Below, piece after piece: positions 1 to 51,520 of a DNA stretch of 64,000 nucleotides (the stretch's first letter is position 1; each line of letters starts with the position of its first letter). The position numbers were made by a program, and so were the translations under genes. Where the stretch lies: the IMG/VR virus record IMGVR_UViG_3300042114_000045, positions 1 through 64,000 of that record. One strand, written 5' to 3'. The notes beneath the pieces are model-generated. The model saw only the letters and a program-made list of their open reading frames with translations. It did not search any database and was not told where the DNA came from. This DNA comes from a virus.

Positions 1-41
1 TCTTCAATAAATTTCTCGTATTTTACTTCACATATACCCAT
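1..41 (-). CDS. Start of a gene running off the left edge
   Basis: An ATG at 41 opens a reading frame (MGICEVKYEKFIE) that leaves the window at position 1. An AAAGG ribosome binding site lies 7-11 bases upstream, and the gene follows the stop of the SLOG/DUF4326 gene by ten bases, so it is probably in the same late transcript. Thirteen residues are too few to suggest a function. Confidence 0.6.
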   Translation of the reverse strand, partial: MGICEVKYEKFIE

Positions 42-51
42 TTAATTACCT

Positions 52-1776
52 TTAACATTCAAGACTACTAATGTCATCTTGTGTTTGTTTTTCTACAGTA
101 TTATATCCTATACTTGCTGTATCATCGTTTATGTCAAACATACCTTTAGCTAATGGTTCTTCATCCATATAGTTCATTGTATACTCAGCAGACTCAAACA
201 ACACTCTTCGTACTTCTTGTATCGATGAACCAGTCACGTACCCATTAACAGCTTCAGTAATAACTTTCTCGGAATACATACTTTTTTTACCTGTTAATTC
301 TTTTACCTTGCTAACAAAAGTATTATATATATCTTCTGATAAACCATAATGAATACTGTTATATAGTTTTTCACTATCAGTATTTTTTACAATAAATGAA
401 CCAACTCTAGCATCTTTATGAACTTCAGTTGAATTAGCGTTATAATTACCATCAACGTCTACCGAACCTTTATCGATATAGTTAGTTTTGCTAAAACTTT
501 TCATACCGATATAATATGTTTTAACAAACTCTTTCCAGTTTATCCTATTGGTACTTTTATTAACCACTTTTAGCTTCTTATCTAATAATATACTTGGTAT
601 ACTGCTTTGTTTACTGTTAATATAATCAGCTAACATTGAAGCTTCTGTTGGTGAATTACCATACTGTTTTTGTACGAATACTGCATTATCAAGTTCACCA
701 CTATTTAGTTTTTGTCTAATAAGTGATAACTTACTTTCTACAGCTTTGTTAATTTTATAACCTTCTGGTATACCTTTTTTCAACCAATAAATAAACTGTT
801 TGTTCATTTTTAACTTCTCTTTATCATCTTTTGTAAACGATGCAAATGGGTTACTATAAACAGAACCTTTACCTATTCTAACAATAGTATCTTGTGTACC
901 CAGATTCAACGGTGTTAACTCTTTACCTTCAACAGCTACATCAGACTTGATTGCAATAGCAGATTCTTTATCACCAAACGTAGCATTATAAGCATCCTTA
1001 ATAGCGTTAATTGCATTTATAGCTTCCTTCTCATTATATTTACCGTGTGGTGCAAATACAATTTTACCGTTACCGTCTTTGGTAGGTTTGCTAAAGTCAC
1101 TAATATCCCTTGTACCAATACCAGCAAAGTTTTGAGTTAGCGTTGGAGCAGCGTCTAACTTATCCCATACACTCTTGTCTGTATCTACGTTCTCGTAGTT
1201 CTTTTTATACCATTGATTATCACGTGGTGAAAACACAAATATTGGTTTACTAGCTATCGTAGCCATTGCTACTGCGTATCCAGTACCACCATTAACAAAT
1301 TCACCATCCAATTCAGCTACCGCGTACACCGCATCAGAATTTGATACCTGTACCCAGTTTCTAGCAAGTAATCCAATTGTATACGAGTTAGTAGCGAATT
1401 TCTTATCTCCGTTAAGAAGTTTATGTGCACGTTTAGCCATTCTTACACCAACGGAATATTCGTCATCAGTTATTTCAGTATTGCCTTCTGAAGGTTTTGA
1501 TTTGTCAGAGTTACTTTTATAATAATGGTTTGATGTAACCCCAAAGGCTTTACCTATATCTCCCCAATATGTATCAGCTCCTAAAGCTCCACCGCTATGG
1601 TTTACAAACTTACCAGGAGTAGTAGTCTTCCTATTTCCATCAGCAGGTATAGCACTTGTAAATCTAGTAGTGTATTCACCAATACTATTAAGTATCGCTT
1701 TATCTTTATCTGTCATACTCTCCATAGCTACTAAGCTATCGAGAGATTTAATAAATTCTTCAATTATACAAGCCAC
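52..1776 (-). CDS. SLOG-like plus DUF4326-like protein, coupled to the virion RNAP
   Basis: About 574 residues. Residues 57-225 look like a SLOG (Rossmann-type nucleotide-binding) domain of the phage kind: SGGALGAD near 61-68, GGTGYAVAMA near 163-172, FAGIGTRDIS near 217-226. Residues 297-390 resemble DUF4326 (GKGSVYSNPF, then a helical part ending in LADYI). The C-terminal third is not recognised. Start choice: a TTG lies directly against AAGGA, whereas the GTG at 1776 is six bases from it and overlaps the stop of the RNAP gene (TAGTG), implying translational coupling. SLOG proteins bind or process nucleotide-derived ligands; the ligand here is unknown. It is probably a virion or early-acting protein because of its late-gene position. 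Confidence 0.75.
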   Translation of the reverse strand: MACIIEEFIKSLDSLVAMESMTDKDKAILNSIGEYTTRFTSAIPADGNRKTTTPGKFVNHSGGALGADTYWGDIGKAFGVTSNHYYKSNSDKSKPSEGNTEITDDEYSVGVRMAKRAHKLLNGDKKFATNSYTIGLLARNWVQVSNSDAVYAVAELDGEFVNGGTGYAVAMATIASKPIFVFSPRDNQWYKKNYENVDTDKSVWDKLDAAPTLTQNFAGIGTRDISDFSKPTKDGNGKIVFAPHGKYNEKEAINAINAIKDAYNATFGDKESAIAIKSDVAVEGKELTPLNLGTQDTIVRIGKGSVYSNPFASFTKDDKEKLKMNKQFIYWLKKGIPEGYKINKAVESKLSLIRQKLNSGELDNAVFVQKQYGNSPTEASMLADYINSKQSSIPSILLDKKLKVVNKSTNRINWKEFVKTYYIGMKSFSKTNYIDKGSVDVDGNYNANSTEVHKDARVGSFIVKNTDSEKLYNSIHYGLSEDIYNTFVSKVKELTGKKSMYSEKVITEAVNGYVTGSSIQEVRRVLFESAEYTMNYMDEEPLAKGMFDINDDTASIGYNTVEKQTQDDISSLEC

Positions 1777-4700
1777 TAACAATCCTTAAATGAGTTTACT
1801 ACGTTTGTTCTTATCTGTTTAAAGTTTTTTAACACAAACTTTTTAATATTATCTGATAGATCACTATCTTCAATATACGTATTTAATTCAGTAATTATAT
1901 CATAGTTATCTTTAGTATCTGCTTTTTTAGCTGTACCTACTTCAACAGCTCTATCTAATTTCTCTAACGCTTTTTCTATGATAGACACTTCATTTTCAAC
2001 GTTATCTGTAGCAAATACACCAAATCTTCCTTCAGGTAATGTTCCTGTCCAATTTTCGTCGGTATTGGAGTTATACCCAGTCATATCATCAGATATATAG
2101 TATTGTTTCATAACTATAGGAGTTCTAGCTAGTTGTCTTCTATCATCGTGCGTATTTCTCAATATCTGTAATACATCACTTGGTTTTACAATAGTTTTAT
2201 CATTACCTATAATTCTATTGAAGTTATTACTAACCATTTCAGCCAAATATGAATCAGCATCGATAGTACTAAATACATCAGGATTTCTACCGATAGTATT
2301 CAATAGTCTACCAACTGCTTCACCCAAACTACTATGATTCATATTTAACTCATAAAATGATTTATTCATTTGGTTGATTTGTTTATTATTCAACTCACTG
2401 TTTACACCAAGTACCAACGCATCAAATATATTTAATGTTTTAGTAGTGTGAGCATCAACCATTGTACTACCATCTAAACTATGCTTATCAGTAACTCCAA
2501 TAGCTCCAACGTTAGAAATAACCTCTTTTATTATTCTGTTAATGTTAGATATATTAGCTCTACTTTTATTAGATTGAAATTGGTTACCACCTATAACGAC
2601 TTGAATCGTATCTTCGGTATTTTCATTTTGTGTTTTGTAATAGTCTTGTAACCCACCTAATGAATTAGTTGCTGCGTAATAACTACCTTCGTCAATCATC
2701 TCTTTCAATATATCCGTAAGTTTATCGTCTGTAACACCACCTAGTTTTGAACTATTGTTGAATGCTACTAATTTATCTTCTAATATTTTCTTAAACGCAA
2801 CAAAGTTTAGTTCCTCAACTACTTTGTGTGCTATTCTAAACTTGTTAATATCATTAAAACTATCGTCGAATGCTTCTTCTAATTGATTACCAATAGCAAT
2901 AGTAACAGCTGAACCTACGATTTCTAGTTGCCCTTCTGATAGAAAGTATTTAGTTGAACCTTTGCTAGCAGGGACAAGTTTTAACTTATCTGTTTTTTGA
3001 TCATACTCATATGCTACTAAGTTTCTCTCGTTAAGTAATACGAATGCTTTATTTATAACTTCTTTATGACTATCATTAGTAGAATTAACACTACCTAATA
3101 GCTCTTTTAATTTATCAATCTTACCAGTCATTATTGCTTCTTTTGCTAGGTTGTATCCTGCAACTTGTTTTATATTTCTTACACTTGATCCGTAGATAAA
3201 CACCATTACTAAAGGTTTTAGAAACGTTCTCCATTTACCACCAATAATACTCTCAACTAAAACAGACATATCAGTAGCTTCGTTGCTTGCACTTAAAGCA
3301 TCAATAAAAGCTTCTTTAGGAGTTTCGTATATATCTTGTTTCCCACTATCTTTAAACTTACCATGAGACATATCTGAAGTTGCATTTTCTCCAACATACA
3401 TACCGGCTTTTTCATATAAGTAACTTGAAGTCCTACTTAATCCCATCTGTAATAACGTAGATGCCATACCATTTGTTATACCGTCAGCCTCTAACGCTAA
3501 GTTTGTAGTAAACTCTTCACCAACAGTCATAGCATATACCGCTTCTAGTGCTTGATGGATATGCATTATATTTTTTGCTGTACCTTCAATATGACTATCA
3601 CTTTGATTATCTACAGCATTTCTAAGATCGTATAGAGATACTGGTTTTACTTCACCTGTTACTTTATCAACCATCAATGCTTTTAAATAGTCACCTAATT
3701 CAGTTGCAACTTTTCCGTTCTCATCGATAGTAAATTTAACGTACTTCTCTAAATCTTTAATTACTTTCTCATCTAACTTTTTATCTGGTCCGAGCTCTAA
3801 AGCTTGAGCGATAGCTAGTTGCATATGTAGTAAATCACCTTCTGTCATATTAGAAGGATTAATAGTGTAGTTCATATCGTCAAGACTAACTATAAATCTT
3901 GATAGCTTACTGTTCTGAGGATTAATCCAAGAGTTATCAATCATACTTCTATTACTTACAGTATAATCCCATTTTAAAAAGAAATCTTTATCTTTAACTA
4001 AAGAGTACGTATCTAGCATTCTATCAATATCTAATGCATCAGCTGTATATGCAGCTTTAGTTTTTTCAAACTCTAAAGGGTGTACACTACTTAACATTGT
4101 AGTTCTACCACCAAGTAAAATCTGTTTAAATTCATACTTAACAGCATTATCAATAGCTTCTAGTAACGCATCTTCTCTGTCCTCTTTTGAGTCAAAGTTT
4201 TTGTCAGCTAATGATGTAGCAGCTTTTTTTGTCGCAATTTTAAGTACATCTTCATACTGTTTTTTGAAGTCACTACTAAATTTCCAAACCATCTTACCTT
4301 GTGCATTTAAGTAGTCTACAGCTTTTTTAGCGATACCGACCATACTATTTCTAGTAGTTGAATCATCTTTTCTATCTTTTATAGGACTAGTATCTATAGT
4401 AGCTTCTTTATCTTCAGCGGCAAACTCAAATACACCACCCATATTTGATATAGCACCATCTGAAACTTCGTAGTTTGTAATAGTACCGACACCAAAGCTT
4501 AGTATTTTAGTTACACGAGAGTTTCTTGCACCATCAGCACTCTCATTAGTTATAGCACCTGTACTAGAGTCACGTACTAATACTTCTCTAACAATACCAT
4601 TATTGTTTGCACTTCTTGTTGCAGTTAACGCGTTGTAGATAACCAGTTCACCTAATGCAAGTTGTGTATCAAGAACATACTGACCTGTAACATCTCCAAA

Positions 4701-7700
4701 GGTTATCTCTAACTGATTTAATAGCTCTCTACCAGCGTCTAGTACATATGTACTTGTAGGAACGTATTTACCTTCTCTTATATCACTAACAATTTTATCA
4801 ACCTCATATGTATCAGGAAACTCACCAATAGTATTGACGAAAGCACCTTCTACGTATTCCCTAATATCATTATCACTTTTATATCTAATTTCTTGCATAC
4901 TTTTTAATGTAAGTATTGTAGCCATGTTAAGAGCAGATTTAACAATATCTCTAGTCTCACTATTTGTTAGTAAGTCATTGAAAGAACTACCACCAACCAT
5001 TGTAGCTAACCCATTAGCTATTTCAGTACCTTTTTGGTTAGTAATATTAATATCAGCTCTATTATCCGTAAATTTTTTAAACTGTTTTATAGCTCTTCTA
5101 ACTTTTACAACACCAGCTTTACCTGAGTCTTTAATAACATTCGGCATTAACGGCATTAAATTATTAACTGCATTTTTTAGTGAAACATTCTCGTTAACTT
5201 TATTAGTCTTATCGACAGCTAATTGGTTAAGAATTTTACTCATCTTACTAGCAATTTGTTCTGGTCTACTACTGATATCAGAGTCAACTATACCTGGTAT
5301 AGTATTACTTATAGCTATTCTATTTGGAAACTTTTCAGCATAAATTGCTTTTTTCAATTCCTTAACTTCGTCTTTAAAGTTACGTATTTGAATAGCAGTT
5401 CTATTACTAGTACGTACTTTATTTTCTCTCAATGTAGCGTTAGCTGCATGCAAAGCTCTTTCTTGCTGTCTAATATCTCGTAATACTTCGTCGTAGTTGT
5501 AGATGTAACTTCTTATTCTGTTAATCGTATTTCTAGTTCTTGTAATAACACCTTTGTATGCAGTATAGCTTCTTCTAATAGCACCTAAAGCACCTTTGAA
5601 TAATTCTCTAACAATCTGTTTTGCACCTGTTGATGAGTTAAGTAATGCTTCTAATTCATCAAACTTACCGAAAGCTTTAACTAGAGTAGCTTCTGATTTT
5701 TTAATATCGTTTCTTGCTTCTTTAATTTTATTTGTAATAGCAACTTTCTTAGACTTAAGTTCACTTAGTGCTTTATTGTTATTTCTAACACTAGCAGCAA
5801 TCTTTTTATTAATCGTAATAGCTGCACTAAGATCTTTCTGTAAGTCATTTAAGTTATACTCAACAGCACTAAGATTTTCTTCAAGTATCAATAATTTACT
5901 AGTAGCATCTTCAATGTTATCACTAATAGTACCTGCGTTATTATCTACAAGTACCTCAGATACATCAGTACCAAATGAAGATAAATCTATATTTGTATCA
6001 GTACCCTCTTCTACAGCTACGTCATTGTAGAAACTATCTGGTGGTGTGTTATCATCCACAGTAGGTACTTCTTCAGTACCAGTATTATCTACGTTATTTT
6101 GATACGAATACCCTTCATCATCATAAGTATACTCACCATTTTTTATATCACTATAATCTGCGTCATTGATCCCAGCTTGAACTGGAGCAGCTATAGTACT
6201 TTGTTTTGTAATGATGTCCCCATTAGCATCTAATTCATAATCCTCGTAAGATTCATCAACTTGATCTTCATAAAAATTATCGTTAGAGTTACTAGTTGAC
6301 TTTCTTACTATATCACTAGGGTTAATACTTTTAACAAACGATGTACCATCAGCTTTTGTAACTTCAACATCTACGTTGCCAATTACACTAACAGATGGTC
6401 CAACTAACGTACCTGTAGCTTCTTTATCACCGTATGAGTATACAACTCTCGAACCAATACCAAATCTATTAACAGCAGCCATAGAATTTTCATTTGTATA
6501 AGCTCTTTTAATTTCATTGTCAACGAAAACTTTCTCACCAGCACCAGCAACTGCAGTAATTAAATCTGCACCAGTTAAGCTAAGTAAGTGTTTATAATCG
6601 TTAATTGAAGCATCTAATGACTCTAACGCTTTTGTTAATTTAGTTCTAGTCTCATCTGTAAGGTTAGTACTAGTTAACGAAGTAGAAGCAATATTTTTTA
6701 ATTCAACTGTTTCATCTAGTCTTTTTTCAGCTAGCCTTTTAATAGAAGACGTTGATCTAAGAGTTCTTGATATAACATTACCTTTTTCATCTTTTACTTT
6801 ATCTACTGCATTAAGTAAATTGATACCTCTTGATTCAGCAAAGTTAATAAATTTATTAAGAGCAGATGCATTTGAATCTTTCATACTTGGTATATTATCA
6901 GATTTTGATATAGCTTCCATATCTATAGCGTGGTCTTTGATACCTTTGTACCAAGTTTTACCTAGTGCGTATCCGTACTGTGCCTCTAATTCAACGTCTT
7001 CAATAGTTTTTTTCTTAGGAGGTTTACCACCATTACCACCGATTTCATTGTTACCTAATACAGTCTCCATAGCATTACCTAATTTGTCTAATGGTTCACT
7101 ACCGAATGATTGCATAGTTGCAATAAGTTTTGCTAAACCAGCTAACTCATTGTCTGGTATCTTATCAGTATCAATATTAATACCGTGTTTCTCTTTTAAG
7201 TTAATAAATTTCTCTCTTAATTTATCAGAGAACATATCAGTTACTTCTTTTTCAACAAATTTATTACCTTTGAAAGCAGACATAAGAGTTTGAATAATAT
7301 GGTTTGATTCACCTTCAGAAGCTCTTTGATTTCCATTAGTACTAGAATCTTTACCATGTATCCATTCACCAAGTTTTTTAGCAACTTGACCAGCTATAAC
7401 TTCTTTACCTTCAGTAGTAGCCACTCCGTACATTTTTGAAACCATATCAGTTGTATCTTGTACAGCTTTAACGTTATTACCGTGCACAGCTGCAACATTA
7501 TTTATACCAGCTTTTATGTCTTCAGCAGTAGATGGCTTATCTTGTAAACTTTTGTAAGCTTTTAATGTACTATCAGCAGCACCTCTAATAGCAGCATCAA
7601 TAACAGTACCTTTGTGCTCCTCTGGGATATTTTCTGCGCCTACTGTTTTTACCATATTCATAATAGAATTTCTACCAGAACTTAATTCTGGGTCAACTCT

Positions 7701-9521
7701 ATTGAATATATAATCAGCATATTCTTTCTTTAGCTTACTACCTTCTTCATTATGTGCAATTAATTCGTCACCAGTTTTTACTAAACCAGCCTTGTAGTTA
7801 TCATTAATTTTTGTAGAAAATTCAGATGCAACATCATCAATAAACGAAGTATCTCTTTTACTATCTAGTATATCATAAGGAGTTCCAGCCATAGCCATAG
7901 CAGCACCTGCGTGATGACCTAACACACCTTGTACAGCTAAGTCCAATCTTTCATTAGCATTAAATAACTTACTCTCATTCTTAGTACCGTACTCTTTACC
8001 TACGTTTTCAGCAGCACCTTGTATAATCTCTTCGATTCCTTCGATAGCACCACTTTTACCGATATGATGTAGTCTATTTTTTACTACTTCCCAAGTTCCT
8101 TTATCTAATGCTTTAGCTAGTTCAGCTACTTCTTTTTTAGTCTCATATAAACCAGCATTACCGCCAGTAAATCTATTTACAACTCCATATACAACAGAGG
8201 CAGCAGTAGCGATAGCGTAGTCTTTAAACCCTAGCGGTTTACCATCAGCAGCTTCTTTTCTCTCGTCAAGTATGTTATTCATTTCATTAGCTATGATTAC
8301 ACCAGTACCAACGTATTTACTAGCCCCACCAATTATGTCACCAATACTAGTTGCTAGTACTTCAGGAGATTGCATAATACCTTTTGCAGTAACTGCAATT
8401 TTATCTAGTACACTAGTATCATTAGAGTTCCACACGTTTTTAAACGCTTGAGAGTAGTTTGACACACGTCTATCATTATAACCATAAGTAGTCATATCTT
8501 TATACTTATCAAAGTATTTGAAGTCTCCGTCTTCTGTAAAGTACTTTCGTAGCTCTGGTGCTTTATCCAAACTATGTTTGAACGTATTTGTAACTTCTGC
8601 ATCTGACATACCAGTAGCCATTGCTACTTTCTTTCCTAAGAACATTCCCGCATCGGCTACAACATCTGCAGCACTGAATAGAGTTTTACCTACTGAACCT
8701 GCGGCTCCGTGTGCAAGATTAGTAAGGTAATTACTATCTTCAATATTTGCACCACGTAATTTAAACTTAGATTCCATCTCATCAGCTGCATTTGGATTAG
8801 CCCATAAACCAACTTTATTATCTCTTGCTTCTTTTCCTACATTAAGTAAGTCACTTTTAAACTCGGTATATGGTACAGCATAACCTTTACTAATCATGTA
8901 TTTAGCATACTCATCGTTTTTAATTAAAGGTCTACCGAATTTATCGTTAGTGCTGTATGAGCCTTCTTTATCTAACGACACATTAGTTGCTGCAGATTGA
9001 CTATCATTAAATGAGGTTACTGACGCACCGGTATTAGTAAGGATATTTGGTCCAGTATCATTAACAGACGTTAAATACCCTTCCATAGTAGCAATTTTTC
9101 CACCAGAAACGTTAGCAGCATCTTTATCGCTATACCCAAGACCGTTTGCAGCAGTATCGGAAGCAGCTTTTATTGCATTATCAAAGTCTTTTATTTTCGT
9201 AGCATCAGTAGTTTTAGCTCTTAAAGCTAATAGTTTTTGTACCCTACCTTCAGCAAGTTGTTTCATTTTATCGGATGAAGTAGCTACTAAAGTGCTTTTC
9301 GCTACTTCAGGAGTATCCATACCAAGAATCCTATATCCTTGGCTATGAATCTTACCAGTAGAATCTTTATGTATTCTGTAAGGTGAGTCACCATCATGAA
9401 CTACGTATTCTGCGTTTTCAGGTACTGGTTCAATACCCATAGTTTTATTAGTTAGCTTTATGTAATTATCGAGTTGTGCGCCTTTAGTAGCATTGCCACC
9501 TGCAAATTGTGTACTTGTCAT
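1776..9521 (-). CDS. Virion RNA polymerase, N4 type, with N-terminal SNase-like domain
   Basis: 2,581 residues. The RNAP motifs of the T7/N4 single-subunit family are visible: TVSNR (T1854-R1858, the T/DxxGR position), motif A in EADGITNG (D2013), motif B with R2098, K2102 and Y2110 at the exact +4/+12 spacing followed by GSS, and motif C in NIFDALVLG (D2367). The B-to-C distance (265) is close to that of N4 vRNAP. Residues 38-245 match staphylococcal nuclease: HDGDSP (42-47), R64, DTPE (69-72), FGRPL (195-199) and EARDNKVGLW (231-240), with all active-site positions kept. Residues about 1,200-1,400 are coiled-coil-like. In N4 the enzyme is packaged, ejected with the DNA, and transcribes early genes. 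Only one cysteine (the last residue) is present. ATG has AAGG upstream. Confidence 0.9.
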   Translation of the reverse strand: MTSTQFAGGNATKGAQLDNYIKLTNKTMGIEPVPENAEYVVHDGDSPYRIHKDSTGKIHSQGYRILGMDTPEVAKSTLVATSSDKMKQLAEGRVQKLLALRAKTTDATKIKDFDNAIKAASDTAANGLGYSDKDAANVSGGKIATMEGYLTSVNDTGPNILTNTGASVTSFNDSQSAATNVSLDKEGSYSTNDKFGRPLIKNDEYAKYMISKGYAVPYTEFKSDLLNVGKEARDNKVGLWANPNAADEMESKFKLRGANIEDSNYLTNLAHGAAGSVGKTLFSAADVVADAGMFLGKKVAMATGMSDAEVTNTFKHSLDKAPELRKYFTEDGDFKYFDKYKDMTTYGYNDRRVSNYSQAFKNVWNSNDTSVLDKIAVTAKGIMQSPEVLATSIGDIIGGASKYVGTGVIIANEMNNILDERKEAADGKPLGFKDYAIATAASVVYGVVNRFTGGNAGLYETKKEVAELAKALDKGTWEVVKNRLHHIGKSGAIEGIEEIIQGAAENVGKEYGTKNESKLFNANERLDLAVQGVLGHHAGAAMAMAGTPYDILDSKRDTSFIDDVASEFSTKINDNYKAGLVKTGDELIAHNEEGSKLKKEYADYIFNRVDPELSSGRNSIMNMVKTVGAENIPEEHKGTVIDAAIRGAADSTLKAYKSLQDKPSTAEDIKAGINNVAAVHGNNVKAVQDTTDMVSKMYGVATTEGKEVIAGQVAKKLGEWIHGKDSSTNGNQRASEGESNHIIQTLMSAFKGNKFVEKEVTDMFSDKLREKFINLKEKHGINIDTDKIPDNELAGLAKLIATMQSFGSEPLDKLGNAMETVLGNNEIGGNGGKPPKKKTIEDVELEAQYGYALGKTWYKGIKDHAIDMEAISKSDNIPSMKDSNASALNKFINFAESRGINLLNAVDKVKDEKGNVISRTLRSTSSIKRLAEKRLDETVELKNIASTSLTSTNLTDETRTKLTKALESLDASINDYKHLLSLTGADLITAVAGAGEKVFVDNEIKRAYTNENSMAAVNRFGIGSRVVYSYGDKEATGTLVGPSVSVIGNVDVEVTKADGTSFVKSINPSDIVRKSTSNSNDNFYEDQVDESYEDYELDANGDIITKQSTIAAPVQAGINDADYSDIKNGEYTYDDEGYSYQNNVDNTGTEEVPTVDDNTPPDSFYNDVAVEEGTDTNIDLSSFGTDVSEVLVDNNAGTISDNIEDATSKLLILEENLSAVEYNLNDLQKDLSAAITINKKIAASVRNNNKALSELKSKKVAITNKIKEARNDIKKSEATLVKAFGKFDELEALLNSSTGAKQIVRELFKGALGAIRRSYTAYKGVITRTRNTINRIRSYIYNYDEVLRDIRQQERALHAANATLRENKVRTSNRTAIQIRNFKDEVKELKKAIYAEKFPNRIAISNTIPGIVDSDISSRPEQIASKMSKILNQLAVDKTNKVNENVSLKNAVNNLMPLMPNVIKDSGKAGVVKVRRAIKQFKKFTDNRADINITNQKGTEIANGLATMVGGSSFNDLLTNSETRDIVKSALNMATILTLKSMQEIRYKSDNDIREYVEGAFVNTIGEFPDTYEVDKIVSDIREGKYVPTSTYVLDAGRELLNQLEITFGDVTGQYVLDTQLALGELVIYNALTATRSANNNGIVREVLVRDSSTGAITNESADGARNSRVTKILSFGVGTITNYEVSDGAISNMGGVFEFAAEDKEATIDTSPIKDRKDDSTTRNSMVGIAKKAVDYLNAQGKMVWKFSSDFKKQYEDVLKIATKKAATSLADKNFDSKEDREDALLEAIDNAVKYEFKQILLGGRTTMLSSVHPLEFEKTKAAYTADALDIDRMLDTYSLVKDKDFFLKWDYTVSNRSMIDNSWINPQNSKLSRFIVSLDDMNYTINPSNMTEGDLLHMQLAIAQALELGPDKKLDEKVIKDLEKYVKFTIDENGKVATELGDYLKALMVDKVTGEVKPVSLYDLRNAVDNQSDSHIEGTAKNIMHIHQALEAVYAMTVGEEFTTNLALEADGITNGMASTLLQMGLSRTSSYLYEKAGMYVGENATSDMSHGKFKDSGKQDIYETPKEAFIDALSASNEATDMSVLVESIIGGKWRTFLKPLVMVFIYGSSVRNIKQVAGYNLAKEAIMTGKIDKLKELLGSVNSTNDSHKEVINKAFVLLNERNLVAYEYDQKTDKLKLVPASKGSTKYFLSEGQLEIVGSAVTIAIGNQLEEAFDDSFNDINKFRIAHKVVEELNFVAFKKILEDKLVAFNNSSKLGGVTDDKLTDILKEMIDEGSYYAATNSLGGLQDYYKTQNENTEDTIQVVIGGNQFQSNKSRANISNINRIIKEVISNVGAIGVTDKHSLDGSTMVDAHTTKTLNIFDALVLGVNSELNNKQINQMNKSFYELNMNHSSLGEAVGRLLNTIGRNPDVFSTIDADSYLAEMVSNNFNRIIGNDKTIVKPSDVLQILRNTHDDRRQLARTPIVMKQYYISDDMTGYNSNTDENWTGTLPEGRFGVFATDNVENEVSIIEKALEKLDRAVEVGTAKKADTKDNYDIITELNTYIEDSDLSDNIKKFVLKNFKQIRTNVVNSFKDC

Positions 9522-9587: not shown

Positions 9588-10802
9588 TTATTTTACGTAG
9601 TTGTTTAAGTAAGATTTGAATGTGTCTAAGTTTACCCTATTTGCGTTATTCATTAAACCTTTTTTATTATTTAGGGAAGACGTTAAAAGAGACTCATACA
9701 CTTTGTACATTGGTGCACCATTTTTCATTGCTTCATCAGCAATAGCTTTTATTTGTGTAACTGATGCATCATCACTACTGTTGAATACACTTTGTTCACC
9801 AGCAATTTTTTCAAGTAATAATGGAAAATTTTTGAATGCATCTTTGTCTCTGTCAATTTGTTTATCGTATATTCTATTTACAGAGGTTTCACCACCAACA
9901 AAATTACCTTTACTATCAATAAGAGAACTTACATCAGCACCGTTAGCTTTTAAATATTCAAACTTAGCTTTTTTGTCTAGTTCTTTTATTGCTTGTTCTG
10001 GGCTGTATTTTTCACCTTTTGCTACCGCAAGATTTTCTTTTAACATTTGATATTGTAGACCTGCATTTCTTGTACTTGCATTTGAACTAGCTATACTGGC
10101 TTTAGTTGCTAATTTATCAAGTTTAAACTTTTCATTATTTAGTACTTCTTTGAAATCATTTTGAAGATCTTCTTTTTTCTTATTAGAGAAATCGAATACA
10201 CTATTTTTTACTTTAACATCCGTACCAGCCGACGCTAAACCAGTAGCAAGAACATACTCAGGATCTGCATCTGCTTTTAAGTTTTTTGGGTCTTTATAGA
10301 AATTAGCTATATATTTTGGATCATTCAGAAACTTTGGGTCAGGTTCTTTAAAGTTAGTTTTATAATTAGTAATAGCATCACCAGCTCTTCTTTGTGTTTC
10401 AGTACTAACCTCTTTAACTACTGTTGGATCGAATAGACCAGCCATTAATGGATTGCTTAATAATTCTTTTCTTTTACTGTCAGCATCTACGGCAGATCCT
10501 AACTTATCAGAAGAGTATAGCGTGTTGAGAACATAGTTACTTGCTGTTTTTGTAGCAAGCTCTCTATTCTCTTTCATTGTATCTCTTGCTAAGCTATACA
10601 TTGCCATACCAGTTCTAGTATTATCATTAGCTATACTAGCCTGTGTAGTAGCATTAGCTCTATTATTAGCTTCTTCTTGTAACCTCATATTCTTTTGTTG
10701 AAATACTAGGTTAGTCATATCTTTAATTGAGTCTCTTAATTCACCAACACCATTTGAAACTCCAGGTATTGCTACCTGTTTTACACCGAAATCTCCTGCC
10801 AT
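9588..10802 (-). CDS. Putative internal virion (ejection) protein
   Basis: 404 residues, Lys/Asn/Asp/Ala-rich, largely helical, with no cysteine, no signal peptide and no membrane segment. It lies directly upstream of the virion RNAP gene in the late transcript and starts 7 bases after AAAGGA. In N4-like phages the genes next to the vRNAP encode capsid-internal proteins ejected with the DNA; that role is inferred from position and composition only. No domain is recognised. Confidence 0.75.
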   Translation of the reverse strand: MAGDFGVKQVAIPGVSNGVGELRDSIKDMTNLVFQQKNMRLQEEANNRANATTQASIANDNTRTGMAMYSLARDTMKENRELATKTASNYVLNTLYSSDKLGSAVDADSKRKELLSNPLMAGLFDPTVVKEVSTETQRRAGDAITNYKTNFKEPDPKFLNDPKYIANFYKDPKNLKADADPEYVLATGLASAGTDVKVKNSVFDFSNKKKEDLQNDFKEVLNNEKFKLDKLATKASIASSNASTRNAGLQYQMLKENLAVAKGEKYSPEQAIKELDKKAKFEYLKANGADVSSLIDSKGNFVGGETSVNRIYDKQIDRDKDAFKNFPLLLEKIAGEQSVFNSSDDASVTQIKAIADEAMKNGAPMYKVYESLLTSSLNNKKGLMNNANRVNLDTFKSYLNNYVK

Positions 10803-10811
10803 ACTAGTCCT

Positions 10812-11396
10812 TTATTGTACTTTATAAGCATCCATATATGCTTGTGTGTTATCCATATCTTTTTGAACAGCTTGTCTGTTTAATGCAGAACTTTTAAGAT
10901 TATCTTTTAGTTGTGTATGACTATCACCGTAAGCTAGTATACCTACTCCTGCGTTAAGAGCTGATAGACCAGTTGTTATACCAGCACCATACTTATCCAT
11001 AAATCCCATATTATTTTTAGTAGCTGCACCAGAAGCAGATAAATCTAGTTGATCTAAGTTTGATATTGTACCATCTGCACCGAATACTGGTTTCCACGGT
11101 TTTGTATCTAAACCAATATAGTTACCAGAATTACCTTTCATCATATCAGAAAAAACACTACTAGACAAACTATTCTTTTGTGCAGCAGTACTGAGTGCAG
11201 CAATCTCAGCATTGGTATTTTTACCACTATATAGCTGTTTTATTCGCTCATTAATATCTAATTGACCAGTAGTAGAACTGCTAGTAGATAAGTTAGGCAT
11301 TGCCTCTAAATTAATTTCAGCAAGTCCATTAGTGCCTGATTTTCCATTTGACAACAATGGAATAGCTAGCACATTCTTTATTTTAGTATTTTTCAT
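10812..11396 (-). CDS. Putative internal virion protein
   Basis: 194 residues, low complexity at the N-terminus (Ser/Thr/Asn/Gly), no cysteine, and a mildly hydrophobic glycine/alanine stretch near residues 135-155. AAAGGG precedes the ATG. It sits ten bases upstream of the 404-residue gene and behind a promoter-like motif at 11,426-11,440. Function unknown; the neighbourhood suggests a minor capsid-internal or connector component. Confidence 0.7.
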   Translation of the reverse strand: MKNTKIKNVLAIPLLSNGKSGTNGLAEINLEAMPNLSTSSSTTGQLDINERIKQLYSGKNTNAEIAALSTAAQKNSLSSSVFSDMMKGNSGNYIGLDTKPWKPVFGADGTISNLDQLDLSASGAATKNNMGFMDKYGAGITTGLSALNAGVGILAYGDSHTQLKDNLKSSALNRQAVQKDMDNTQAYMDAYKVQ

Positions 11397-24898: not shown

Positions 24899-26128
24899 TT
24901 ATTTAGAAGCTAGTACGTCTACTCTTAATAGTTTTTCTTCTTCAAGGATAATTCCAGCGTACCAGAAGTTATAAGAGAAGAAACCTTGTGTTCCGTATGG
25001 GTTGATTAGCTCAACTTGCTCAGGAGATTTGCTGTTAAACTTGATTTTATCGTTACCTTTAAGACCAACAGTTGCGAATGCACCTTGAGTTGGGTAAAGG
25101 ATTGGGAATACGTCAAAGTATGTTCCAGCAACAGCACCTAAACCTCTAGCAGCTACAGCAGCAGCATTGTCAGCAAAAGTTGTAGCACTTAAAGAACCTG
25201 TGTATCCAGCTGTAACCTCAGCACCTTTACCGTAGTAAACAACAGCTTGTTCAGCTTCAACGAAAATAGTTTCGTGCATTGAACCAACTTCACCTTGTAC
25301 ATATGTACCAGCATCAGCATATTTGTGAACAGGTGTAAACACGTATTCTTTCTCATATCCTGTACCTCTTGTTAAGTTCTCAAGGTCAGCTTTAACATCA
25401 GCACCAATTACAGCATAGAATGCTTTAGCAACTGTTTTTGTATCAATTTTTGTTGAACCAGTAACCATTGAACTTGTTTTTTTAGCTCTGTTTCTAACAA
25501 GTTTTCTACTTGCAGCTCTGATAAGGTCGTAAGAAACTTTCCATGAAGCATCTGCAGCACCAAGAGCATCAACACCTGTACCTAACGTAGCCATACTTGA
25601 AGCAGCACCTGCATACATTTTAGTAGTTGTACTTAACAAATCCATTTGAATTAAGTCTTCGTATCTAACGTTAGCTAATTCACCTAGTTCTTCTCTATAT
25701 TTAACTTGGATAAAATCCTCTGAAAACATATCTACTTCATCAGTAAAGTCCATCATTTCACCATATCTAGCGAAGCTAGTATCGAATGTAACTTTTTGTA
25801 ATGATCTTTTGTTTTGTGCACCTGCACCTTCACTTAATCCAGCACTCGCTAAAGCAGCAGATACAGCATCAGCACTTCTTGCAGTCATAAAACCTTTTGC
25901 AGCAAAATCACCATCAGTAGCTAAGTTTCTATCATACATATGTAAGAACTTACTAATTTTAAATGTTTTACCCATATTCAATGGCATAGATTTTCTATCC
26001 GCGAATTGTCCATAAACTTCAACTCTGTTTGCTGCTTTAATACCAGCCCTGTCATAAAAATGCGTTATCGTATTAGCACCAGCTGTTGCTGTTGTTGTAC
26101 CATTACCGTATACGTTTGTTATTGCCAT
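24899..26128 (-). CDS. Major capsid protein
   Basis: 409 residues, the usual size of N4-like capsid proteins (HK97 fold expected). The pattern DFTDEVDMFSED followed by a long helix (YREELGELANVRYEDLIQMDLL) and the closing GYFSYNFWYAGIILEEEKLLRVDV are typical of this family. It has no cysteine. It follows an acidic scaffold-like gene and is followed by a strong hairpin. A good AAGGA site precedes the ATG. Confidence 0.88.
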   Translation of the reverse strand: MAITNVYGNGTTTATAGANTITHFYDRAGIKAANRVEVYGQFADRKSMPLNMGKTFKISKFLHMYDRNLATDGDFAAKGFMTARSADAVSAALASAGLSEGAGAQNKRSLQKVTFDTSFARYGEMMDFTDEVDMFSEDFIQVKYREELGELANVRYEDLIQMDLLSTTTKMYAGAASSMATLGTGVDALGAADASWKVSYDLIRAASRKLVRNRAKKTSSMVTGSTKIDTKTVAKAFYAVIGADVKADLENLTRGTGYEKEYVFTPVHKYADAGTYVQGEVGSMHETIFVEAEQAVVYYGKGAEVTAGYTGSLSATTFADNAAAVAARGLGAVAGTYFDVFPILYPTQGAFATVGLKGNDKIKFNSKSPEQVELINPYGTQGFFSYNFWYAGIILEEEKLLRVDVLASK

Positions 26129-26169
26129 GTGTTTTCCTTATTTGGTTATATCTTTCTCTAACGAGAAGG

Positions 26170-27324
26170 CTAGTATTTAGCCTGTAACTCGTTATACCAC
26201 GCATCGTAGCTTTCTTCTGAATCGTCTAGATAATCTACAATTGTCTTACCAGCTTTCGCTTTGGTAGGAACAGCAGCCTTTCTAGCTTCAGCAGCAGCTT
26301 TCGTTGCATTTCTACTTTCCGTTTGTTTCTTAACTTCTGCAATTCTGTCAACAACAGGAGCTACAGCAACTACTTTTGGTACTACTGGTGCAACCTGTGC
26401 TTTCTGTGCGTTAAGAGTAGCAAAGTTGTTAATCGCTTTATTGTTGTGGTACTTAGTACCAGCTTCTATAAAGTACTCTAAGTCACTTTTAATTCCATCA
26501 TCTAAAGCTTTTAACTTCTGTGCTTCTGCATACACAAACTTATAGTCACCGTTTTTAACATCAACATGTAGACTCTCAATAAGCTTAGGGTTTTTAAAGA
26601 ATTCTGTTCTAGAACGTTCATCCCATTTATTTGCTATGATATCAGCTGTTATACCGAAATCAGCATCTCCCTCAAACTTTGATACTACATCTTGAATAGC
26701 TATCTCCGTATCATCTCGACCATAATTCTTTGGCTGATAATTAATGTTATCTGTGTCTAATTCGAGGGCATCAACGCCAGTTCGTTTCATTACACTTGCA
26801 ATAGCATTCTTATCGCCCTTAAGTACATCTATGAAAAGATTAACATCGTCATGTGTTAAACCATTATCTTTCAGCGCGCTTATGGTTTTTCTCCAAGGAG
26901 AAATCTCTTGCATTTTCTTCGTATAATCCATTGCTTTTGGAGCTAGTTGTAACAACTCAGGTAGTTCAAAATCGAACTCTTGTCCATTTGCTTTAACTTT
27001 ATACTTTTGTACTTCTTGTACCTTTGGTTCTTCTATCGTTACTACTTCTTCTACTGGTTCAGCAATTTCCCCGTCAGGATCTACTGAGGCATCATCATTA
27101 ACAACTACAGGGTCATTTTGTGTACTATTATCATCGGAGTCCTCACCGGGTTGTTCCAATTCTTCTTCTTCTTCTTCGTACTCAATTTCTTCTTCTATCT
27201 CTTCTACTGGATCTTCATCCATGTCATTCTGTAATTCTGCCACACCTGAACTTAATTCTTCCTTAGCCGCATAAAAAGCTACTTCTAGCTCTTCATCTGT
27301 CATATCATATATACTTTTTGACAT
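26170..27324 (-). CDS. Scaffold-like protein
   Basis: 384 residues, immediately upstream of the capsid gene. Residues 35-115 are extremely acidic (Glu/Asp runs), the centre is helical, and residues 320-365 are Ala/Lys-rich. This acid N-terminus/basic C-terminus layout is usual for phage scaffolds, which line the procapsid and leave or are degraded. No protease motif is seen. Confidence 0.75.
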   Translation of the reverse strand: MSKSIYDMTDEELEVAFYAAKEELSSGVAELQNDMDEDPVEEIEEEIEYEEEEEELEQPGEDSDDNSTQNDPVVVNDDASVDPDGEIAEPVEEVVTIEEPKVQEVQKYKVKANGQEFDFELPELLQLAPKAMDYTKKMQEISPWRKTISALKDNGLTHDDVNLFIDVLKGDKNAIASVMKRTGVDALELDTDNINYQPKNYGRDDTEIAIQDVVSKFEGDADFGITADIIANKWDERSRTEFFKNPKLIESLHVDVKNGDYKFVYAEAQKLKALDDGIKSDLEYFIEAGTKYHNNKAINNFATLNAQKAQVAPVVPKVVAVAPVVDRIAEVKKQTESRNATKAAAEARKAAVPTKAKAGKTIVDYLDDSEESYDAWYNELQAKY

Positions 27325-27327
27325 ATA

Positions 27328-27648
27328 TTACTCCTGACCGAATTCCGCTTCATAAGCGTCGTCTTCAGCGATTGATCCTATATTCTTAATAGTAATAAAG
27401 TGGTCTTGTAAATGGCTGATAGCAATAAGTGCTTCCATAACATCAGGTCTTGCACCAGATCTTTTTATATCATCTCTAGCAAGTAAGCTAACTTTTCTAG
27501 CTGCAGCTTCTGTGAAATAACCAGTTAATATAAGTGTTTTAAAGTCTTCGTTTTGCTCTAATCTTTTCAACGCTTCAAACTGTCTTACCCAGTATGTTTG
27601 TTCTCTTGTTTCTAATTCTACTTCTTCGTTTTCCGTTTGGTTAGTCAT
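27328..27648 (-). CDS. Small late protein between head genes
   Basis: 106 residues, charged and helical, N-terminus very acidic (TENEEVELETREQ). Three bases from the scaffold gene. AAGGAGTCAAT precedes the ATG. Unknown; probably a head-assembly accessory protein. Confidence 0.65.
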   Translation of the reverse strand: MTNQTENEEVELETREQTYWVRQFEALKRLEQNEDFKTLILTGYFTEAAARKVSLLARDDIKRSGARPDVMEALIAISHLQDHFITIKNIGSIAEDDAYEAEFGQE

Positions 27649-27740
27649 ATTGACTCCTTAGTTTTATTGATTTAGTATCTTAATGACCTTAGTCTAAGTT
27701 TACTTATAGTAATAATACTACAAGTATGCTTAATAGTACT

Positions 27741-28100
27741 TTAACTCAACTCTTTCATTTTGTATAAAGTACTTCTGTACAACGCTTGAATTTCTTGAAA
27801 TATGTTACTAATGTATTCATCATCACATTTTTTACATAGATTCTCGAGCATTGTAAGCTGAGTAGTAATTCCAGCAATTGGATCATCTATATCACCTTTC
27901 ATATCTACGAACGGTATATTTAGTTTACCGTATTTTCCTTGCGTAGCTTCAGCCAATGCATCAGCCAAATCTACGATTTCGTCATAAAACTTGTTTAGAG
28001 CTTTATGCTTAGAATAACTACCTGTTTTTAAGTGTGCCATATGTGAGTACGTTCTACTCATAAATAGGACACCTATTATTTTTCCTATACTTTCACTCAT
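27741..28100 (-). CDS. Small helical late protein
   Basis: 119 residues (MSESIGKIIG onward). The upstream in-frame TTG at 28,115 precedes a strong GGGAGGGG site, so the ATG at 28,100 is the start. Helical and charged, with CKKCDD near residue 92. Unknown role in the head region. Confidence 0.65.
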   Translation of the reverse strand: MSESIGKIIGVLFMSRTYSHMAHLKTGSYSKHKALNKFYDEIVDLADALAEATQGKYGKLNIPFVDMKGDIDDPIAGITTQLTMLENLCKKCDDEYISNIFQEIQALYRSTLYKMKELS

Positions 28101-28160
28101 ATTGACCCCTCCCAATTTCTACCTGCAACTCTGTCACTCTTTGCTTGCTCTCTTAATGTA

Positions 28161-28946
28161 TCAAGTAAAGGATTTTTTTTGCATTTCCTGCAGTTTAATA
28201 GTTTTTGATATACTTGGTTCTACAATATTTTTACTAATGTCACTAGCTAATGCTTTTCTTGGGTTGTTAGCTTTAGCTTCATTTATCATCATATCAATAG
28301 CTGCATCACTTTTAACATCTCTAGTAGGTGTTGAATCAACTGCAGTAACTACGTTCGTAGTTGCTTGTTTTGTAACTGGCGTTGAAGCTTTAAACCCACC
28401 GAATAGTTTACCGTTATCATTAGTTACAGATATACCTGCTTTCTTCATTGCAGCAAACGTCTGTGGTCCAAACTTACCATCTAATGTAGCGTTAGGGTCA
28501 TTCTCTTTAAACCCCATACGTTTTTGAATATCGTACACAGTGTCTTTACCTTTAAGCTCAGAGAGTGAGAATGAGTTATCAACTACTGGTTTACTATTAG
28601 ATGGTGTTGAAGGTACTGAAGCTGTTTGTTGTTTAAGTACTGGCTTACCATGAATTCTATTTTTAGCTTCATCACTACCTGCAAATACTGGCTTAAACTT
28701 TCCTTTACTAAGTACATCATTTGCCGTATGTCCATCAGTAAGCCATTTCATAGCTTCATATGTAGACGTAGCTGCAATAATTGGTAATGAAACTTTTTTA
28801 CTTACAGCTTTTATAGCACTTAGTCCTTCACCAGCTCCTTTTGATATTGCTCCAGCTGCCGGAGAATTCGCCATAGACCCAAAGTAGTTTATACCTGATT
28901 TTAGTGTGTTTCTACCAAAGGTACTTAATGCTTCACCATTCCACAT
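28161..28946 (-). CDS. Head-region protein with peptidoglycan-binding-like motif
   Basis: 261 residues. Residues about 137-170 (YDIQKRMGF, LDGKFGPQTFAAMKKAGI) match the PG_binding_1 helix pattern. The N-terminus is glycine/alanine-rich with a possible amphipathic segment, the C-terminus is charged. It lies with small head genes downstream of the portal, so it may be a virion protein that touches peptidoglycan during entry. No catalytic domain is seen. Confidence 0.65.
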   Translation of the reverse strand: MWNGEALSTFGRNTLKSGINYFGSMANSPAAGAISKGAGEGLSAIKAVSKKVSLPIIAATSTYEAMKWLTDGHTANDVLSKGKFKPVFAGSDEAKNRIHGKPVLKQQTASVPSTPSNSKPVVDNSFSLSELKGKDTVYDIQKRMGFKENDPNATLDGKFGPQTFAAMKKAGISVTNDNGKLFGGFKASTPVTKQATTNVVTAVDSTPTRDVKSDAAIDMMINEAKANNPRKALASDISKNIVEPSISKTIKLQEMQKKSFT

Positions 28947-28947
28947 A

Positions 28948-29229
28948 CTAAGCCTTTTTACCTAGGTTAAGTGTTTGTAATAGTTTACTTAAAGCTACTT
29001 GTTCACCAGTTTGTAAACCTTGTTGATGACCAGCTACCATACCTTGTTGTGCACCAATCTTAGCGGCATCAGCCAACTCAGCTTGTTTTACAGCATCAGC
29101 TTGTGCTTTATTATTTTGTGCAACAATACCATCTAAAGCTTTTGCTTTAGCAGCATTAATCTGTGCTTCATTATTAAATGTTTGTTTAAATTTATCGGCA
29201 TTTGCCATTGTTTCTATATATCCAGCCAT
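28948..29229 (-). CDS. Small Ala/Gln-rich head protein
   Basis: 93 residues, Ala/Gln/Lys-rich and fully helical. Directly adjacent to both neighbours (1-base gaps). Probably a small head or neck component; not recognised. Confidence 0.65.
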   Translation of the reverse strand: MAGYIETMANADKFKQTFNNEAQINAAKAKALDGIVAQNNKAQADAVKQAELADAAKIGAQQGMVAGHQQGLQTGEQVALSKLLQTLNLGKKA

Positions 29230-29230
29230 A

Positions 29231-29515
29231 TTACGCTCCCATCTTACTTAAACTTAAAGGTTGTACTTGTTGTTGTTGTGCAGTATCTGCAGCGACGTCA
29301 GTAGTTTGTCCTTGACCTTGAACTTCTTGTCCTTGACCTTGCTGAATCATCTGTACAGCATATTCAATTATTTCTTTTGGAACACCCATTTGAGCTAACT
29401 CATCAGGAGTATGCCCTTGTTGTAACATCTGTATAACTTGCATCAGAAGTTCTTTCATCTTTGCTTCGTCCATACCACCAGTTCCTGATGCACTTAATCC
29501 TTGTTGTTCTTCCAT
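29231..29515 (-). CDS. Small Gln/Met-rich head protein
   Basis: 94 residues, Gln/Met/Glu-rich (around MKELLMQVIQMLQQG and a GQGQEVQGQGQ tract near 70). Such short Q-rich proteins often follow portal genes in podoviruses. Preceded by AAGGAATTAGT and by a promoter-like sequence at 29,541-29,568. Confidence 0.65.
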   Translation of the reverse strand: MEEQQGLSASGTGGMDEAKMKELLMQVIQMLQQGHTPDELAQMGVPKEIIEYAVQMIQQGQGQEVQGQGQTTDVAADTAQQQQVQPLSLSKMGA

Positions 29516-29540
29516 ACTAATTCCTTAATCTTTTATATTT

Positions 29541-29568
29541 ATTATAGCAAACGCACTATTAATGACAA
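29541..29568 (-). promoter_or_regulatory. Sigma70-like promoter
   Basis: Minus strand: TTGTCA, a 16-base spacer, then TATAAT, with TG in the extended -10 position. It begins just after the portal stop codon and would drive the small head genes, scaffold and capsid. The best sigma70 match found in the late region. Confidence 0.6.
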
Positions 29569-29569
29569 C

Positions 29570-50801: not shown

Positions 50802-50875
50802 TGGTTCGGATATAGAGAATCGAACTCTAACCTCAGCTTCCCAAAAGCCGTGTGCTACCATAACACTTTATCCAA
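50802..50875 (-). tRNA. tRNA-Pro (UGG)
   Basis: Cloverleaf with acceptor TTGGATA/TATCCGA, anticodon loop TTTGGGA, T-loop TTCGATT and encoded CCA. Last gene of the ten-tRNA minus-strand cluster; spacing to tRNA-Phe is only three bases. Confidence 0.9.
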
Positions 50876-50878
50876 ATA

Positions 50879-50954
50879 TGGTGCTACCAACAGGGATCGA
50901 ACCTGTGACACTAGGATTTTCAATCCTATGCTCTACCATCTGAGCTACAATAGC
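50879..50954 (-). tRNA. tRNA-Phe (GAA)
   Basis: Acceptor GCTATTG/TGGTAGC, D-arm with GATGGTA, anticodon loop TTGAAAA, T-loop TTCGATC and encoded CCA. Confidence 0.92.
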
Positions 50955-50955
50955 A

Positions 50956-51032
50956 TGGTGGAATATATCGGATTCGAACCGATCACCTCTAGCGTGCAAA
51001 GCTAGCGCTCTACCAAAATGAGCTAATACCCC
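50956..51032 (-). tRNA. tRNA-Ala (UGC)
   Basis: Acceptor GGGGTAT/ATATTCC, anticodon stem CTAGC/GCTAG with loop TTTGCAC, T-loop TTCGAAT and encoded CCA. Confidence 0.92.
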
Positions 51033-51042
51033 TTATAAAAAT

Positions 51043-51119
51043 TGGTTGTTCCATAAGGACTTGAACCTTAAACCTCTCGATTATCAACCGAACGCTCTGA
51101 CCAATTGAGCTATGGAACA
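51043..51119 (-). tRNA. tRNA-Ile (GAU)
   Basis: Perfect acceptor TGTTCCA/TGGAACA, anticodon loop TTGATAA, T-loop TTCAAGT, encoded CCA. Purine 34-36 is GAU, so it reads AUU/AUC. Confidence 0.92.
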
Positions 51120-51121
51120 TT

Positions 51122-51197
51122 TGGCACTCCTAATCGGATTCGAACCGATATGAGCTCCTGGAAAGGGAGCCATCCTAAACCATTAGATGATAGGAGC
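51122..51197 (-). tRNA. tRNA-Glu (UUC)
   Basis: Acceptor GCTCCTA/TAGGAGT, discriminator G, D-loop AATGGTTTA, anticodon loop CTTTCCA, T-loop TTCGAAT, encoded CCA. Confidence 0.92.
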
Positions 51198-51199
51198 AT

Positions 51200-51273
51200 T
51201 GGCTCTCTAGGTAGGTATCGAACCTACGACTTCCCTTTAACAGAGGGATGCTTGACCTTCAAGCTACTAGAGA
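51200..51273 (-). tRNA. tRNA-Asn (GUU)
   Basis: Acceptor TCTCTAG/CTAGAGA, anticodon stem TCCCT/AGGGA with loop CTGTTAA, discriminator G typical of Asn, encoded CCA. Confidence 0.9.
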
Positions 51274-51274
51274 A

Positions 51275-51351
51275 TGGGGTAATCGACGAGACTCGAACTC
51301 GCAACATTCAGGATCACAACCTGACGCCTCTACCATTGGGCTACGACTAAC
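51275..51351 (-). tRNA. tRNA-His (GUG)
   Basis: Anticodon loop TTGTGAT, T-loop TTCGAGT, encoded CCA and an extra G at -1 opposite C73, the His identity pair. Position 1 is T facing C72, a mismatch unusual for a functional acceptor. Confidence 0.85.
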
Positions 51352-51358
51352 ATAAATT

Positions 51359-51442
51359 TGGTGCGGAAGGAGAGACTCGAACTCTCACGCCTTTCAGCAC
51401 TGGTTTCTAAGACCAGATTGGCTACCATTACAACACTCCCGC
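51359..51442 (-). tRNA. tRNA-Leu (UAG)
   Basis: Class II tRNA: acceptor GCGGGAG/CTTCCGC, anticodon stem CTGGT/ACCAG with loop CTTAGAA, 13-base variable arm, T-loop TTCGAGT, encoded CCA. Confidence 0.9.
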
Positions 51443-51443
51443 A

Positions 51444-51517: not shown

Positions 51518-51520
51518 ATA

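Follow-up and report, generated by a model that had tools for sequence, protein, structure and literature searches.

Gene organization of the virion RNA polymerase locus

The stretch of viral DNA analysed here (the window) spans positions 1 to 64,000 of the IMG/VR record IMGVR_UViG_3300042114_000045, and the features described below are listed in Table 1. Gene 1 of this stretch starts with an ATG codon, and the coordinates given for this ORF in an earlier sequence-only reading are borne out (minus strand, 2581 aa). That reading had assigned the protein to the N4-type virion RNA polymerases (vRNAPs) and had placed the polymerase motifs about 1,600 residues beyond an N-terminal nuclease-like part; the spacing is correct, and the assignment is supported by a match of residues 1841-2527 to PHROG 2206 'virion RNA polymerase' (E 2.6e-26) and by aligned motifs. 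As single-protein scans revealed no direct relatives of gene 1, alignments with the vRNAPs of N4, LIT1 and phi50-12 were needed, and all four motifs, viz. NPQNSKLSR, EADGITNG (motif A), R..LKPLVMVFIYGS (motif B) and NIFDALVLG (motif C), could be aligned to these proteins at 19-20% identity. The T7-like catalytic set is present in gene 1, consisting of R1875 (equivalent to the arginine of TxxGR), D2013 of motif A, R2098, K2102 and Y2110 of motif B, and D2367 of motif C.

A point absent from the earlier reading is that gene 1 lacks both the zincin and the C-terminal third of N4 vRNAP; the ORF is part of a vRNAP, not a whole one. Downstream of it lie gene 2, a middle cassette, and gene 3, which begins in the window and is completed at the opposite contig end (G000 119033-122686; 1217 aa). 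The genome is circular or terminally redundant, and the 134-bp overlap of its ends makes genes 1-2-3 contiguous. Gene 3 encodes the zincin (HEVEH) and the C-terminal region of N4 vRNAP, and it matches the second half of PHROG 2206 (positions 2269-3094; E 5e-56). The three genes are closely coupled. At the gene 1/gene 2 junction the stop and start codons overlap (TAGTG) and a Shine-Dalgarno-like AAGGA is found upstream, while a similar sequence, AAAGG, is found at the gene 2/gene 3 junction. As judged from their sequences, genes 1, 2 and 3 jointly stand in for the single 3,500-residue vRNAP of N4.

Table 1. Positions of the described features (window coordinates unless a locus is named)
Feature	Position	Strand	Remark
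Gene 3 start, ATG at 38-40, with Cys4	1..40	-	runs off window
Terminal repeat	1..134		identical to the final 134 bases of the 122,779-base record except for base 8
Gene 2, middle cassette, GTG start at 1776	52..1776	-	574 aa
Cys574 codon of gene 2 (last residue)	55..57	-	just before TAA stop
DprA/SLOG-like domain, gene 2 residues 56-194	1195..1611	-	PHROG 768, E 6e-9
Cys3 codon of gene 2	1768..1770	-	
Gene 1: SNase domain, long helical middle, N4-type vRNAP domain	1776..9521	-	2581 aa
Cys2581 codon (TGT) of gene 1 (last residue)	1779..1781	-	just before TAG stop
N4-type vRNAP domain, gene 1 residues 1841-2527	1941..4001	-	PHROG 2206
SNase-type domain, gene 1 residues 38-245	8787..9410	-	catalytic set and PDB profile match
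Insert of ~110 residues between the two catalytic blocks	8946..9290	-	bigger than in relatives
Two cysteine-free proteins (404 and 194 aa) at N4 gp51/gp52 positions	9588..11396	-	by position
N4-like virion block	24899..31627	-	
Major head protein	24899..26128	-	
gp57-like protein	26170..27324	-	
Portal	29570..31627	-	
AD45 vRNAP region	L112:36713-48395 (NC_021532.1 90623-102305)		GenBank: 'potential frameshift', no CDS

Based on comparison of gene order with N4 and phi50-12, the window vRNAP lies in an N4-like virion gene block, with the genes for the portal, gp57 and the major head protein upstream. Two proteins of 404 and 194 aa are encoded just upstream of the vRNAP gene; their comparison with N4 gp51 and gp52 gave no sequence match above chance. 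The window vRNAP thus resembles the gp50 vRNAP of coliphage N4 (Schitoviridae; PHROG 2206) in its RNAP motifs, its zincin and C-terminal region, the order of its parts, the virion genes upstream and the cysteine-free interior of the protein. However, it differs in being split over three genes with a cysteine at each inner end, and in possessing a staphylococcal nuclease (SNase)-type head and an exchangeable middle cassette. The genome is also larger (122.8 kb versus about 70 kb for N4). As a type, N4 vRNAPs are virion-packaged, injected enzymes that use hairpin promoters to transcribe early genes.

Ten further metagenomic genomes show the split as well, as do the cultured Alteromonas phages AD45-P1 to P4; in 12 genomes RNAP, zincin and C-terminal region do not form a single giant chain. 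The contiguous order of genes 1-2-3 is also seen in L009-L012, L088 and L090, and genes 1 and 3 are adjacent in L008, L013, L091, L099 and AD45. Pairwise identities among the gene 1 proteins of this clade lie mostly at 22-43%, with L009 and L010 sharing 90%. Split vRNAPs had been met earlier in two isolates, where they were taken as gene-calling errors or readthrough (PMC10654107), and a search of open-licence papers found no report of split vRNAPs as a mechanism.

The SNase-type domain at the N-terminus of gene 1

The sequence-only reading had recognised SNase motifs in the first 245 residues of gene 1 and their fusion to a vRNAP, and both are substantiated by a complete catalytic set and by a profile match to PDB chains. 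The residues D43, D45, R64, D69-T-P-E72 and R197 correspond to D19, D21, R35, D40-E43 and R87 of SNase, and they occur in the same order as in staphylococcal nuclease (PF00565). The domain differs from that enzyme in its fusion to a vRNAP, in an insert of ~110 aa and in the absence of a secretion signal. When residues 1-264 were compared with the Pfam SNase family, the match (E 0.00087, 20.2 bits) fell slightly short of the curated cut-off of 21, and it covered residues 193-242 only, because the extra residues part the DTPE and FGRPL blocks; this insert was predicted, at low confidence, to be mostly helical or coil. The relative L009 lies above the cut-off (21.2 bits). Searches of the PDB with phmmer, using gene 1 or single domains, gave nothing useful, and only a family profile worked. 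This profile, built from the vRNAP N-termini of the window and six other loci, matched SNase/thermonuclease chains (E 6e-5; 258 matches, with 60/60 of the matches listed being SNase), and its alignment spans the two catalytic blocks, D21/R35/D40-T41-P42-E43 and R87. The AlphaFold2 models of the domain from two runs were of low confidence (mean pLDDT 49 and 42), and Foldseek searches with them gave no significant match.

The occurrence of this domain was surveyed among vRNAPs obtained by scanning viral contigs with the vRNAP domain (80 loci) and by a clade-specific scan (four more). Using iterated profiles and a leave-one-out test on roughly 85 vRNAPs, split and unsplit, the SNase-type domain was found at the N-terminus of 12 proteins and of one truncated protein (L013). 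Members that were left out were recovered at E 6e-6 or better (3e-7 for the window), whereas non-members, the truncated member aside, scored no better than about 0.06. The earlier reading knew of no SNase domain in N4 vRNAP. A survey of N4-like RNAP fusions lists zincin, lysozyme, PBECR RNase and ART as partners, SNase not being among them (PMC5512222), and no paper describing SNase together with an N4-type vRNAP was found among open-licence papers. The domain is not unique to the window, as 12-13 of the ~85 vRNAPs carry it. The fusion is a new architecture within a known kind, the polyvalent N4-like vRNAP, and it would add a new enzyme to the injected partners of N4 polymerases.

In the 12 aligned domains, the loop aspartates D19/D21 as well as R35, E43 and R87 are invariant (12/12), while the D40 position holds Asp in seven of them and Asn in the other five; the window keeps D40 and T41. 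The active site is thus under purifying selection with one metal ligand partly eroded, and this combination makes nuclease activity of the window domain likely, not certain. The sequence-only reading suggested that the ejected protein may cut host DNA or RNA during entry or trim competing templates. That the head is such a delivered nuclease, active and Ca2+-dependent, is given somewhat less than even odds. The retention of the catalytic residues in sequences that are otherwise very divergent speaks for it, whereas the asparagine in five relatives and the absence of the domain from the clade members L008, L090 and AD45 speak against it. In addition, SNases require millimolar Ca2+, and the concentration in the cytoplasm is far below this, which makes the periplasm or cell surface a more plausible site for the predicted activity. 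The same losses of D40 and of the whole domain would be expected if the head serves only in nucleic acid binding or in a structural role (cf. the degenerate domains of SND1/Tudor-SN), e.g. by tethering the genome end to the polymerase, and the fact that N4 vRNAP takes part in the injection of the first part of the genome also fits with this. However, the invariant E43, R35 and R87 are required for catalysis rather than binding, and a role limited to binding or structure is considered less likely than not.

Cysteine residues are located at the inner ends of the vRNAP pieces

As noted before, N4-like single-chain vRNAPs nearly always lack cysteine, and this lack has been linked to passage through the tail and to periplasmic oxidation (PMC3715699, PMC3915230, PMC4837373). 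Of the single-chain N4-like vRNAPs, 57/61 are without cysteine past residue 60. The interior of the window pieces is likewise free of cysteine, and one cysteine is found at each inner end: Cys2581 is the sole cysteine of gene 1, and gene 2 contains cysteine at residues 3 and 574 only. If the four cysteines of the window vRNAP were placed randomly in its 4372 residues, the chance of all of them falling in the junction windows is ~6e-10. Other proteins of this genome contain on average 1.3% Cys, and a cysteine is present in the first 6 residues of 5/96 of them and in the last 5 residues of 3/96.

The same pattern holds across the 12 genomes, where each of the 38 junction ends (38/38) has a cysteine within six residues of the end, and 39/40 cysteines, among about 49,000 residues, are located at junction ends. 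The single exception is one extra internal cysteine in gene 3 of L013, and the outer ends of the split-clade pieces are without cysteine. In genomes that lack one of the pieces or have it joined to another (L008, L013, L091, L099 and AD45), the matching cysteine pair is absent as well. One example of this kind is L099, in which a SLOG-like domain is fused directly to gene 3 and the cysteine pair of that junction is gone. The junction codons are a mixture of TGT and TGC, the C-terminal cysteines lie 0-4 residues ahead of the stop, the paired codons are 8-44 nt apart (often 8-11 nt), and the junctions include all three frame relations (0, +1 and +2) and all three stops (TAA, TAG and TGA). Such varied codons, frames, stops and gaps indicate selection on the amino acid. 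No report of the terminal-cysteine rule was found in our search of open-licence papers.

A split vRNAP in cultured Alteromonas phages

In vB_AmaP_AD45-P1 to P4 (KF005317-KF005320) the vRNAP consists of two intact cysteine-tipped genes. The larger product (2481 aa) has a single Cys, at 2479, and the smaller one (1409 aa) likewise has a single Cys, at 4. Like the window phage, these phages have a split vRNAP with cysteine-tipped inner ends; they differ from it in having two pieces, in lacking the SNase head, and in the change of the zincin HEXXH to EEVVH. The vRNAP of Shigella phage pSb-1 is annotated in three pieces and has no cysteines. AD45-P1 and pSb-1 have both been considered to possess a single chain (PMC10654107), which is also implied by the GenBank remark on the AD45 region. 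Sequencing error as the origin of the split was rejected, as the split is found in 12 genomes and in the four AD45 isolates, all of which share the same break; the three-piece pSb-1 is cysteine-free. In the light of the cysteine rule, what appeared to be an annotation error in cultured phages is a genuine arrangement of genes.

It could be argued that one chain is nevertheless made, by readthrough, frameshifting or ribosome bypassing between the Cys codons, so that the split is only apparent. The short distance between these codons and the order of the parts, which equals that of the single-chain vRNAPs, are in keeping with such an explanation. However, it is not easily reconciled with junctions in every frame relation and with every stop codon, with Cys codons that are often mismatched (TGC/TGT) and lie shortly ahead of the stop, with the Shine-Dalgarno-like sequences that precede the new starts, or with the shared break of the AD45 isolates; moreover, a fused product would need no cysteine. 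Programmed frameshifting, readthrough and codon-matched bypassing were rejected on the frames, codons and gaps, and the single-chain explanation is regarded as highly improbable. A split intein was also rejected from the sequence, as just 0-4 residues follow the cysteine.

Proposed coupling of the pieces by terminal disulfides

We consider it probable that, in the virion, disulfides join each piece to the next, and that the pieces are ejected as one train and freed by reduction in the cytoplasm. The disulfides, their pairing, the threading and the reduction are steps that we infer; in such a scheme there would be two pairs, Cys2581 (gene 1) with Cys3 (gene 2) and Cys574 (gene 2) with Cys4 (gene 3), and the disulfides formed within them in the virion would yield one covalent train. 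This train would thread the tail as a single unit, as is thought for the single-chain vRNAP of N4, and the reducing cytoplasm would then cleave it into free parts, viz. the RNA polymerase with its SNase head, an effector cassette that can be exchanged (SLOG/DprA-like here), and the zincin with the C-terminal part. The SNase head would refold after passage into a Ca2+-dependent nuclease or a nucleic-acid-binding module, with the Ca2+-rich periplasm or the cell surface as its most likely site of action. The model rests on the injection of vRNAP, on the suitability of cysteine-free chains for an oxidising compartment, and on the presence of disulfides in phage virions (PMC10172136). Against it, virions are assembled in a reducing cytoplasm, and the disulfides would therefore have to form late or after lysis; the extra cysteine in gene 3 of L013 and some features of the Crassvirales proteins described below also do not favour it.

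Disulfides at these positions could just as well anchor the pieces within the capsid instead of forming a threaded train. In a broader form of this explanation, the cysteines bind each other, a metal or some other thiol partner and serve only to keep the pieces joined or attached to the capsid while the virion is assembled and stored, and ejection occurs piece by piece. The virions of crAss001 contain disulfides which stabilise the tail and portal vertex (PMC10172136), in agreement with such a role. However, the cysteines are found only at neighbour-facing ends and are gone upon fusion (L099, L008, L013 and L091), a distribution that end-to-end joining fits better, and we hold ejection in separate pieces to be unlikely.

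For the problem of moving a polymerase of 350-500 kDa along a narrow tail and across two membranes, the cysteine rule offers a directly testable answer, with covalent coupling outside and reductive uncoupling inside the cell. Terminal cysteines in otherwise cysteine-free proteins would then predict which ORFs are co-injected, and the cysteine-coupled pieces suggest a modular delivery of protein cargo.

Terminal cysteines in Crassvirales virion RNAP proteins

The virion RNAP of Crassvirales is of the double-psi beta-barrel kind, unrelated to the T7-like fold of N4 vRNAP. The giant virion proteins of these phages (phi14:2 g065-g067; crAss001 gp47/gp49/gp50), including the RNAP proteins, which are virion cargo (PMC10172136), resemble the split N4-like pieces in having one cysteine per neighbour-facing end. 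The Crassvirales loci compared (L114-L124) were those of crAss001, DAC15, cr106_1, cr111_1, cr116_1, cr55_1, crAss002, phi14:2, cr50_1, Dulem virus 41 and Leptolyngbya phage Lbo-JY46. In phi14:2, the only cysteine of g067 is its last residue, g066 has cysteines solely at residue 3 and at the second-to-last position, and g065 at residue 3 only. The inner-end rule is also kept, where the ends are readable, in crAss001, DAC15, cr106_1, cr111_1, cr116_1, cr55_1, cr50_1, Dulem virus 41 and Lbo-JY46. In cr116_1, an apparent C-terminal Cys of the first gp50 part was not counted, as a small ORF is inserted in the interval that follows it (probably an intron).

Besides the RNAP fold, the two groups differ in the internal cysteines of some crAss pieces, as some gp50 homologues contain 1-8 of them. 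The gp33 of crAss002, as annotated, lacks the N-terminal cysteine and is an exception on one side. The evidence nonetheless leans towards a convergence of these unrelated lineages on one solution, in which separate, largely cysteine-free polymerase and effector proteins would be joined in the virion by terminal-cysteine disulfides, injected as a single covalent train and uncoupled by host reductant, with breaks and cysteine pairs appearing and disappearing together. The prediction would thereby extend to the crAss phages, which are more abundant in the human gut than any other phages. If this is true, effector cassettes (SLOG, NADAR and zincin) would be exchangeable between fixed couplings.

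Middle cassettes and the zincin

The middle cassettes vary, being SLOG/DprA-like in the window and NADAR-like in L088 and L090, as is expected of exchangeable cargo. The SLOG-like domain of gene 2 is 40% identical to the N-terminal domain fused onto gene 3 in L099. Several effector domains together with a zincin, the hallmark of polyvalent proteins, are present across genes 1-3, and the window proteins share with the phage polyvalent proteins (PMC5512222) the character of multi-effector sets, predicted to be injected along with the DNA, in which an N4-like RNAP is joined to a zincin and other enzymes. They differ in that SNase, SLOG and NADAR do not appear in the main text of that work and in that the modules are separate cysteine-ended polypeptides, not one chain. 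The zincin is predicted to cut polyvalent chains apart (PMC5512222). If the disulfide-linked train holds, the zincin of gene 3 would be partly redundant, and the loss of HEXXH from gene 3 in L011, L012, L090 and AD45 is in line with this. The middle cassettes of L011, L012 and L090 carry a HEXXH of their own.

Other genes of the genome

A gene of the nicotinate phosphoribosyltransferase family (PF04095, E 5e-37) and a nucleotidyltransferase (PF01467) are found at G000 82414-84954 (L002:18414 to L003:954); they resemble an NAD+ rebuilding pathway, which may be linked to the injected SLOG/NADAR cassettes. Two very cysteine-rich proteins, viz. one at window 39865-41769 with 26 Cys in 634 aa and a YadA-head match, and the other at 43199-46144 with 65 Cys in 981 aa and a weak PKD match, are probably tail or decoration proteins; their composition differs sharply from that of the cysteine-free ejected set. 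The regions G000 76464-77637 and 87096-88316 (L002:12464-13637; L003:3096-4316) hold one or more TerD-domain genes and a gene for an RtcB RNA ligase, and a reverse transcriptase (PF00078, E 8e-21) at G000 98842-99624 (L003:14842-15624) adjoins genes which, by eye, resemble a PRTRC/ThiF cluster. An array of ten tRNAs is located on the minus strand at window 50802-51596, with two more tRNAs near 62.9-63.4 kb.
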